DNA from: a virus
DNA: 44,779 nucleotides
Virus record (IMG/VR): IMGVR_UViG_3300032285_000510
Coordinates: 1-44,779 of that record
Direction: 5' to 3' (one strand)
Shown: positions 20,881 through 39,852 of the stretch, piece by piece
How positions within the stretch are numbered: the first letter of the stretch is position 1
Layout of the letters: every line of letters begins with the position of its first letter
Translations under genes and position numbers: made by a program
The notes under the pieces: model-generated
Databases searched by the model: none
Told to the model about the DNA's origin: nothing
What the model saw: only the letters and a program-made list of their open reading frames with translations

Positions 20881-21204
20881 TTAGCCGATTAGACCACCCA
20901 TTAGTGATGCTTCACTAAGTTTGATACCAGATGCTTCTTCAATAACCTTGTAGACTGTTGGAAGGTCCAATAGTTCTTCAAGGGCCTTGACATCCTTGGC
21001 TAGTTCTGGAGCATACTGCTTTAGAGCAATTTGAACACACTCCATGAGAAGTGTCATTGACTTCTCGTTGTCCTCTGCAACTTCTGCGATACCCTCAAAC
21101 TTTGACATAAAAGGGCGTAGAAGAGAGATTTTTAGTGGACGAACTGAAAGAACAGTTCCATCCAATAGTTCTACAGTTTTTGTTTCATTTACAGTTGTAG
21201 ACAT
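20881..21204 (-). CDS. Tail assembly chaperone, short form (gpG-like)
   Basis: A 107-residue protein lying 17 bases before the tape measure, where the short tail assembly chaperone normally is. It holds tape measure and tube subunits during tail assembly and is not part of the virion. It is an obvious paralogue of the N-terminal ~100 residues of the preceding gene: both have ELxDGTVLxxxPLKI, a helix ending FMxKFE, a CVxIxxKQ helix and LPTVYKxIE...GIK. It ends with no room for a frameshifted extension. The ATG at 21204 has a strong AAGGAGG five to six bases upstream. It has its own promoter, so it can be made in excess of the long form. Confidence 0.8.
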   Translation of the reverse strand: MSTTVNETKTVELLDGTVLSVRPLKISLLRPFMSKFEGIAEVAEDNEKSMTLLMECVQIALKQYAPELAKDVKALEELLDLPTVYKVIEEASGIKLSEASLMGGLIG

Positions 21205-21208
21205 GAAT

Positions 21209-21215
21209 CCTCCTT
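21209..21215 (-). promoter_or_regulatory. Strong ribosome binding site AAGGAGG
   Basis: Perfect anti-16S match ahead of the short chaperone gene. It contrasts with the long chaperone gene upstream, which has none. Confidence 0.8.
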
Positions 21216-21231
21216 ATATGGTTTCTAAATA

Positions 21232-21240
21232 ATTATAGCA
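21232..21240 (-). promoter_or_regulatory. Extended -10 promoter TGCTATAAT for short chaperone
   Basis: Minus-strand TGCTATAAT between the two chaperone genes. The predicted start is near 21225, leaving a leader of about 21 bases with AAGGAGG. No good -35 is seen. Confidence 0.6.
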
Positions 21241-21256
21241 CAAACAAAAACAATTA

Positions 21257-21958
21257 TTAAATACTTTCATAGTCTAGCCCCATACCAATACCAAAGCCAT
21301 ATTGCTGTGCTTTGACTCCTTGTAGGGATGTAATGTCATTAGGGTCTCCATTACCAATACCAGAAACTTTTGATGCTACCCTGGCTTTCATGGCTTCCCA
21401 AGGGTCTTCCTGCTGTTTGCCACTTGCTTCATCTAGGTCAACACCCTGCATAGCAGCAAGGAACTTCTTTTCATTATAGTCCAATTCTCTAGTTGTTTCA
21501 AGAATAGCCATTAGTTCTGGCATTGAAATATGAGATTCTAATTCATCAAAGTTTTTCCAAACCCCTAGCACAAATACCTCAGATTCTAGTTTAACTAAAT
21601 CTAGGTTATCCCAAGAATTTTCATTAGATGGCTTAGATGTTTTATTATTTATATTATCATCAGAACCATCTGATTGCATTTTGATACCTGCACAATATTC
21701 TATAATTTTATAAACTGTTGGTAAGTCAACGTTATCTTCAACATCTTCAATTGTTTTTATGCTTGGATAAAACTGTTTCATAGATATTCTCACACAATTT
21801 ATAAGATTAAAAATTGATTCATCATCATTTCTAGAGTTTTTTACATCTTCAAACTTTTCCATAAACTCTTTAAGATATTTAATTTTTAATGGACTTATTT
21901 CTAAGACTGTTCCATCTATAAGTTCTATCTCATTTATATCATATATTTTAGTAGGCAT
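21257..21958 (-). CDS. Tail assembly chaperone, long form (gpGT-like)
   Basis: A 233-residue protein between the tail tube and tape measure genes. Residues 1-100 are homologous to the short chaperone that follows (ELIDGTVLEISPLKI; LPTVYKIIEYCAGIK). After an Asn/Ser-rich linker (about 100-120), a C-terminal half contains a helical domain (MPELMAILETTRELDYNEKK) and a tail PWEAMKARV...GIGMGLDYES, like the T half made by frameshifting in lambda-type phages. Here it is encoded in frame as a full-length gene. The base composition is more AT-rich than that of the tube gene. Start ATG 21958 has no Shine-Dalgarno sequence and lies five bases from an extended -10, so a leaderless message is likely. Confidence 0.75.
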   Translation of the reverse strand: MPTKIYDINEIELIDGTVLEISPLKIKYLKEFMEKFEDVKNSRNDDESIFNLINCVRISMKQFYPSIKTIEDVEDNVDLPTVYKIIEYCAGIKMQSDGSDDNINNKTSKPSNENSWDNLDLVKLESEVFVLGVWKNFDELESHISMPELMAILETTRELDYNEKKFLAAMQGVDLDEASGKQQEDPWEAMKARVASKVSGIGNGDPNDITSLQGVKAQQYGFGIGMGLDYESI

Positions 21959-21963
21959 ACTCT

Positions 21964-21972
21964 ATTATAGCA
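21964..21972 (-). promoter_or_regulatory. Extended -10 promoter TGCTATAAT, predicted leaderless
   Basis: TGCTATAAT followed by five bases (AGAGT) and ATG at 21958. It sits directly after the terminator of the tail tube gene. Confidence 0.6.
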
Positions 21973-22004
21973 AAAGAAACTGCCCCAGGAATCCCCAGGG
22001 CAGT
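21971..22004 (-). terminator. Rho-independent terminator after tail tube gene
   Basis: Seven-base-pair stem ACTGCCC/GGGCAGT (arms at 21998-22004 and 21979-21985) with a 12-base loop, followed on the minus strand by TTTCTTTT. Confidence 0.8.
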
Positions 22005-22031
22005 CTCAAACGATATTAAGTTATATTGATT

Positions 22032-22817
22032 TTAGAAGGTTCTGTCTACAATCTTACCATATGAACCTGAGTCATCTGGAAGAAGACGGAAACTTACTTC
22101 GAATGCAGTAGCAGAGTCACGCTTTGCTGCAACTGTAACTGAATCGATTGAAACAGCACGGTATGCAATGTATACACGTTCCTGCTGGTCTGCAGTAGTT
22201 GGGCTTGTTGAATCGTATCCATCCTTGTTTCCAAGACCTGGACCAACTGCAATAATACCACGCTCTACTGGGTAATCTCCCAAATCACCTGAGTTAATGT
22301 CTAGAATTGAGTCTGTGACTGCTGCCACACCTGCACTAGTTGTAGACAAGGTTGCACCTGATGTAACTGAAGCCAAGTTACCAACTGTAAGTTGGGTAAT
22401 GTTGGTCAAGTTAGATAGGTATGTAACTTCAGAGATTGTAGAAATCAAGTTTCCAAGACCTGGCTGATAGTCAACGTCCTTACCAGCAATTGCTAGAAGT
22501 AGGTTTTCTAGAGTTCCTTCTGCAAGTGTTGTCTTCAGTGTTACCTTCATACCCTGCTTGAAAATCTTAGCAGTGTCTAGTAGTTGGTCTACCATAACTT
22601 CACCAAAATCTGGAGCAAAAGTAATTTCCAAACCGTTGTTGGTGTAACCAACATTGCGGAATGTAGATGCGTAACGGTCTGTTAGCGAAGTCTTGTAAGA
22701 CTCACCACCAACGAAACCTGGAACTGTTGTTGCACTCAGTGACTGTGAATCCTTTGTCACGAAGAATGCTGCGGCACCAACGATAATGTTGGCATTTGTA
22801 CCTCTTGTATATCCCAT
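22032..22817 (-). CDS. Major tail tube protein
   Basis: A 261-residue protein, MGYTRGTNANIIVGAAAFFV. It precedes the tail assembly chaperones, as the tube subunit does in siphoviruses, and is a monocistronic unit with its own promoter and a strong terminator, consistent with high output. The N-terminal third (YASTFRNVGYTNNGLEITFA) and a Thr/Ser-rich middle loop fit the beta-sandwich tube fold; the end ...VSFRLLPDDSGSYGKIVDRT is a typical tube C-terminus. ATG 22817 was preferred over upstream GTG codons at 22829 and 22826 because AAAGGTGG overlaps them and stands eight bases before the ATG. GC content is higher than in neighbouring genes, as in the capsid and nrdJ genes, which suggests codon selection for strong expression. 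Confidence 0.85.
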   Translation of the reverse strand: MGYTRGTNANIIVGAAAFFVTKDSQSLSATTVPGFVGGESYKTSLTDRYASTFRNVGYTNNGLEITFAPDFGEVMVDQLLDTAKIFKQGMKVTLKTTLAEGTLENLLLAIAGKDVDYQPGLGNLISTISEVTYLSNLTNITQLTVGNLASVTSGATLSTTSAGVAAVTDSILDINSGDLGDYPVERGIIAVGPGLGNKDGYDSTSPTTADQQERVYIAYRAVSIDSVTVAAKRDSATAFEVSFRLLPDDSGSYGKIVDRTF

Positions 22818-22851
22818 ATTTTTCACCACCTTTCATTGTGAGAATAATTGG

Positions 22852-39306: not shown

Positions 39307-39852
39307 ATGAATAATTTAAAAATCAAAAGATTACTCGCCACAGGAATTTTAAGTTTGACTCTGACTGGTTGTGTTACCCCTCAAGCCAGTGCTGCTGAAA
39401 TGCCTAATAACAATGTTGTTACAAAGCAACATAATTTTACAATTGATTTAGTTCACACTGCTAAATTAAATAATAATACCTATAAAATGAAACAAACCCT
39501 GATGAAAATATTTCATCGTGTAAATAAAACTCCGTATGTTTTTAGTGGTTCTACGCCCTATGGTTGGGATTGTTCTGGAATGGTTGTTTGGATGTATAAA
39601 CAATTTGGGATTGAACTTCCACATTCCGCCAACAAACAAGCACATATGGGCAAAAGAGTTTCTAATCCAAAACTTGGAGACATAGTTGTATTTGCATATA
39701 ATGGTTCTACTAATTTTTATCATTCTGGTATTTACATTGGTAAAGGTAAAATAGTAAATTCTAATGTTTACTATGGAACTACAGTTATTGAGCCATTAAG
39801 CGATTATAAAAATAGTCAAATAAGATTTGTAAGAATTGTTCCTACTATTTAG
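39307..39852 (+). CDS. Secreted NlpC/P60-type cell wall hydrolase, likely lipoprotein
   Basis: A 181-residue protein and the only long plus-strand gene between the tail fibre genes. It has a signal peptide with a lipobox LTGC (Cys 22), and also ASAAE, which looks like a signal peptidase I site. The NlpC/P60 catalytic Cys (Cys 89 in YGWDCSGMVVW) and His (His 139 in YHSGIYIG) are present. It would cleave peptide bonds in peptidoglycan stems outside the membrane. This domain is used by phage lysins, but the Sec/lipoprotein signal and lone operon suggest an exported enzyme, for example an envelope-modifying or exclusion function. Own promoter, AAGGAGG six to seven bases before ATG. The stop lies two bases from the stop of the minus fibre gene, with no visible terminator between. 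Confidence 0.85.
   Translation: MNNLKIKRLLATGILSLTLTGCVTPQASAAEMPNNNVVTKQHNFTIDLVHTAKLNNNTYKMKQTLMKIFHRVNKTPYVFSGSTPYGWDCSGMVVWMYKQFGIELPHSANKQAHMGKRVSNPKLGDIVVFAYNGSTNFYHSGIYIGKGKIVNSNVYYGTTVIEPLSDYKNSQIRFVRIVPTI

Follow-up and report, generated by a model that had tools for sequence, protein, structure and literature searches.

Two tail assembly chaperone genes appear to take the place of a −1 frameshift in a clade of viruses related to Stanwilliamsviridae phages

The window analysed here, the whole of an A+T-rich IMG/VR virus record of 44,779 bases, very probably encodes the gpG-like and gpGT-like tail assembly chaperones of a relative of the Stanwilliamsviridae phages, in which the −1 frameshift has been replaced by an in-frame fusion of the N- and C-domains together with a separate N-domain gene led by a Shine-Dalgarno (SD) sequence, and in which promoters and translation initiation would set the ratio of the two products. 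In most long-tailed phages, a single gene yields both a short and a long chaperone through ribosome slippage. We consider it fairly likely that this frameshift has been exchanged for two genes across a whole clade, with the ratio set through leaderless versus SD-led translation and two promoters, and with frameshifting sister phages available for comparison.

The structural genes are carried on the minus strand, in the order major tail protein, long chaperone, short chaperone and tape measure protein (Table 1). The initial annotation had described a long chaperone encoded in frame and followed by a shorter paralogue of its N-terminal half, and the coordinates, strand and lengths that it gave for both genes are correct. 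The tape measure protein contains an acid phosphatase-like domain of the HAD IIIB type (PF03767, E=2.7e-18, about residues 1409-1553), an unusual cargo for a protein of this kind, and two more segments of similar appearance, YFGPGTYFAEDPLDSKKLF and GPLEGPGLYTSSTLKI, for which Pfam gives no match. Elsewhere in the window, a lone plus-strand gene (39307-39852) stands amid minus-strand genes, and its product has, by eye, the look of a secreted cell wall peptidase of the NlpC/P60 type (WDCSGMVVWMY).

Table 1. Features of the chaperone region and its neighbouring genes, in window coordinates
Feature	Position	Strand	Remarks
Long tail assembly chaperone	21257..21958	-	233 aa; N-domain, linker and C-domain in a single frame
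Long chaperone N-domain, residues 1-94	21677..21958	-	alignment with short protein; PHROG 10504
Hydrophilic linker, about residues 95-115	21614..21676	-	occupies the slippery-site position of frameshifting relatives
Long chaperone C-domain	21260..21613	-	PHROG 10474; homologue of the −1 frame ORF in frameshifting relatives (alignment)
Short tail assembly chaperone	20881..21204	-	107 aa; paralogue of the long N-domain
Terminator-like hairpin, 14 pairs	21976..22007	-	separates the major tail protein gene from the long chaperone gene
Extended −10 (TGCTATAAT) of long gene	21964..21972	-	ends 5 nt before ATG; predicted leaderless start
Promoter-like site of short gene	21232..21260	-	TTAATA, 17 nt, TATAAT preceded by TG
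Shine-Dalgarno AAGGAGG of short gene	21209..21215	-	4 nt before ATG
Major tail protein gene (context)	22032..22829	-	PHROG 885 E=1.9e-6; PHROG 2175 (Ig domain) E=1.3e-31; position
Tape measure protein gene (context), 3779 aa	9524..20863	-	PhageMin_Tail E=7.7e-26; DNA match to Streptomyces phage tape measure genes

The N-domain of the long protein and the short protein align over 96 residues with 45% identity and 69% positives (E=2e-27), so that the paralogy proposed in the initial annotation is clear and the objection that the two might lack significant similarity falls away. In a profile search, PHROG 10504 matched the N-domains of both proteins and PHROG 10474 the C-domain of the long one; neither PHROG has a named function, and a Pfam search gave no chaperone family for either protein. 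The tail of the short protein, SEASLMGGLIG, is similar to the 0-frame tail of frameshifting relatives. Both proteins are homologous (tblastn) to annotated chaperones of Streptomyces and Rhodococcus phages, annotations that are themselves predictions, and the position of the genes between those for the major tail protein and the tape measure protein is kept in the relatives. When an AlphaFold model of the short protein (pLDDT 74) was compared with 256 chains, the best three were YqbN (3KLU, Z 5.8), 5IR0 (Z 4.4) and HK97 gp13 (2OB9, Z 4.2), which are modest matches with all Z values below 8 and do not establish the fold; the model of the long protein is poor beyond the N-domain (mean pLDDT 56) and was left out of the fold search. 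Position, homology and gene order support the assignment of the two proteins as putative tail assembly chaperones, a gpGT-like long form and a gpG-like short form. A short and a long form with a common N-domain are encoded in the window and in all 270 complete loci of the fused class described below.

Relatives were collected from IMG/VR in seven scans seeded with fused, short and frameshifting members, and the loci were sorted by HMMs of the N- and C-domains; the scans rank records by similarity to the query, and rare intermediates may be missed. In the fused class (270 complete loci, 190 distinct), the N- and C-domains stand in one ORF that is followed by a separate N gene, whereas in the frameshift class (256 complete loci, 175 distinct) the N and C ORFs overlap and there is one N copy. 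The two architectures are mutually exclusive across the 526 complete loci, among which neither a fusion without a second N gene nor a frameshift accompanied by a second N gene was found, and the ten loci that fit neither class are all cut by a contig end. The C ORF lies in the −1 frame and overlaps the N ORF in 178 of the 178 two-ORF loci checked. No Streptomyces phage record among the 127 matched by the short protein has more than one N-domain place, and a search for relatives in bacterial and archaeal genomes found none. The comparison with relatives that the initial annotation had called for thus sets the two architectures apart, and shows that the closest relatives of the fused clade (L365, L369, L375 and L459-L538, hereafter the sister clade) are themselves frameshifting.

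The dN/dS (NG86) of the short gene is low, at about 0.18, as are those of the long N-domain (0.17) and the long C-domain (0.10), all of them rough values with dS near saturation. In five loci, a methyltransferase-like gene lies between the two chaperone genes as one and the same insertion, at 4697-5477 in L129 and likewise in L420, L422, L424 and L426; by eye, it resembles a class I SAM-dependent methyltransferase (LELGCGSGND motif). An inserted gene would not be tolerable for a frameshift pair, which argues that the two chaperone genes are separate cistrons. Two candidate correlates of architecture were rejected: G+C is 0.374 in one class and 0.373 in the other, and the tape measure open frames overlap widely in length, with about 1,700-4,060 aa in the fused class (excluding one record apparently cut by a contig end), 1,980-3,240 in the sister clade and 1,570-2,820 in other frameshifting phages.

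The slippery site is conserved where the frames overlap and not where they are fused. A CCCAAAC or CCCAAAT heptamer, read in the N frame as X XXY YYZ, lies within the overlap in 112 of 114 distinct loci of the frameshift class, and CCCAAAC is present in 64/64 members of the sister clade. A perfect 6-bp stem-loop follows 3' of the heptamer in 87 of 118 distinct sequences, compared with 2% of shuffles. Among cultured phages, Moab has CCCAAAT, and the more distant Rhodococcus relatives, which are annotated as joined chaperone frameshift genes, carry GGGAAAA; Streptomyces phage Coruscant (L539) has the −1 frame overlap of N and C without a canonical heptamer, GAC CCG GAA TTG standing at the usual place. 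In the fused clade, the junction is a hydrophilic linker of variable length. The junction in the window contains no slippery heptamer, and CCCAAA occurs in only 7 of 174 distinct fused junctions; some in-frame heptamer is found at the junction in 27 of these 174 genes, and none is conserved. Elsewhere inside the fused gene there is likewise no conserved heptamer, AAAAAAG at about codon 163 recurring in some relatives and being absent from the window. The alternative that the initial annotation had held open, a slippery heptamer with a conserved frame overlap, is therefore absent from both the window and the fused clade.

The two genes of the fused clade differ in their start signals. In the window, the short gene has the extended −10 TGCTATAAT with a −35 match (10 of 12), and the same extended −10 precedes the long gene, which lacks an SD. 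This pattern recurs in the distinct relatives: the long genes have an SD in none of 161, and the extended −10 lies 5-9 nt before the start codon in 143 of them; at a spacing of 5-8 nt it is found in 82/161, compared with 1.3% in shuffles. The short genes have an SD in 159 of 160, with the extended −10 mostly 23-28 nt upstream. A strong hairpin is predicted ahead of the long gene in each of the 60 fused loci sampled, and rarely before the short gene. The promoters and leaderless starts are consensus predictions, and their recurrence across the clade is far above the shuffled expectation. On this basis, the long gene appears to be transcribed from a promoter of its own and translated without a leader; for the short gene, both promoters may contribute transcripts, with an SD-led start. 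The predicted signals of both genes are those that the initial annotation had named, namely a leaderless long gene and a separate promoter and AAGGAGG for the short one, and they prove to be features of the clade. A TTG start is used by the chaperone in 79 of 97 distinct members of the distant frameshifting class (L038-L081 and similar), whereas the sister and fused clades use ATG.

We propose that one gene with two decoded products has become two genes with one product each. In phage lambda, the coat of the tape measure protein consists of the short form; the long form is rarer, and its C-domain brings in the tail tube protein (PMC5009743). By analogy with lambda gpGT, N-domains would cover the tape measure protein here, most of them supplied by the short protein, and the C-domain of the long protein would recruit the tail tube protein to it. 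The two promoters, and the contrast between a leaderless and an SD-led start, would set the ratio of short to long form. The short form would probably be in excess, since its gene has a strong SD and could be transcribed from both promoters. In phage TP901-1, particles made with a permanent gpG-gpT fusion, and thus with the long form only, look normal but are not infectious (PMC4493119); this would account for the lack of any fusion without the short gene.

The −1 frameshift appears to have been replaced by the fusion and the extra N gene, probably once. In a tree of the tape measure protein, the fused and sister clades split from the other frameshifting phages with a support of 100, and both have in common a C-terminal segment, around DPNDI, which is lacking from most of the other aligned frameshifting relatives. 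Given that frameshifting relatives occupy the outer branches, the simplest scenario is that the frameshift was lost in the ancestor of the fused clade. The source of the second N gene is less clear: either tandem duplication or acquisition from a sister-like phage could account for it. In the N-domain tree, the long, the short and the distant frameshifting sequences each form one clade (100/98, 100/100 and 100/97), and the sister clade groups with the short paralogue (97/83), so that a simple tandem duplication is unproven. One could accordingly suppose that an in-frame fusion came about and that the short gene then arrived by recombination from a frameshifting phage of the sister clade, with loss of the C part. 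Besides the tree, identity of the sister N-domains is 57-62% with the short proteins from the window and from L023, against 43-52% with the long ones, and the chaperone start of the sister clade, TGCTATAAT with AAGGAGG, resembles the promoter and SD of the short gene. An exchange of chaperone and tape measure modules is also suggested by L017: its fused chaperones are close to those of the window, its tape measure gene clusters with those of the frameshifting sister clade, and it is probably a recombinant between neighbouring tail modules. However, a faster-evolving long gene can be drawn towards the root, and the topology expected from duplication, with long and short joined, is not rejected (AU p=0.267). 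We therefore treat acquisition of the short gene as a tentative and rather doubtful alternative to its origin by duplication.

Other explanations concern what the two genes do and whether the fusion is real. If the paralogues had diverged in role, the short protein would be a distinct partner and not a plain gpG equivalent, and its ratio to the long form need not mirror gpG:gpGT. The long N-domain does evolve the more rapidly of the two, with a higher dN than the short protein in 83% of pairs, and the paralogues of the window have less than half of their aligned residues in common; but the predicted N-domain elements are the same in both, the short protein is nearest to the single N-domain of the sister clade, and no complete fused locus lacks the short gene, all of which makes divergence in role improbable in our view. 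It is very unlikely that the long gene still yields a short form through residual slippage or other recoding, which would render the second gene redundant: the scattered in-frame heptamers at fused junctions would allow it, but none is conserved, the window's junction has none, and the second gene is present in every complete fused locus with a low dN/dS. A single-base error could in principle join two frames at a slippery site, and an assembly or sequencing error is nevertheless a negligible explanation of the in-frame fusion, which is seen in 190 distinct sequences, drawn from many metagenomes, with protein identities as low as about 50% and all with the extra gene downstream; the number and divergence of these independent contigs led us to reject it. 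Replacement of the frameshift by two chaperone genes is the preferred reading.

The chaperone frameshift is among the best conserved recoding events in phages, and its replacement raises the question of whether selection acts on the ratio of the two products or on the coupling of both in one gene. Here, nature has separated the ratio from one-gene coupling, and close frameshifting relatives serve as controls. Should the ratio be preserved in some other way, then it is the ratio that matters; otherwise, the requirement is less strict than the examples of lambda and TP901-1 imply. For annotators, the practical consequence is that a frameshift should not be imposed on every chaperone pair.

The gpG/gpGT chaperones of lambda and most long-tailed phages were reportedly described by Xu, Hendrix and Duda in 2004. 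The pair described here resembles them in gene position, in a short form that equals the N-domain of the long form, and in a long form that adds a C-domain; unlike gpG/gpGT, it consists of two genes with separate initiation signals and no slippery site. T4-like phages have contractile tails. Their chaperones are reportedly made through a mechanism other than frameshift (Vladimirov, Gautam and Davidson, Virology, 2022). The nearest cultured relatives are Streptomyces phages of Stanwilliamsviridae, in which the homologues of N and C are two ORFs, many of them annotated as tail assembly chaperones. Jay2Jay, Coruscant and Moab share with the window homologous N- and C-domains (PHROGs 10504 and 10474) in the same gene order, but theirs are overlapping N and C frames with one N copy. 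For Microbacterium EA1 phages, separate chaperone ORFs have been predicted (PMC6856279, PMC7302621) and, as in the window, no frameshift is evident; however, the two ORFs of MillyPhilly are an N part and a C part and not paralogues (E=6.2), and its ORF 16 matches the frameshifted C part of Bustleton with 75% identity. The authors of PRFect counted 342 SEA-PHAGES genomes in which two chaperone genes are present but no frameshift is annotated, and suspected many of these to be incomplete annotations (PMC10885494). A literature search, with subscription papers mostly outside its reach, found no description of a fusion with an N-domain paralogue, of a duplication replacing a frameshift, or of a sister clade that still frameshifts. 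Exceptions to the chaperone frameshift have thus already been reported, and we rate the combination of a fused long chaperone with an N-domain paralogue as a further variant among them.
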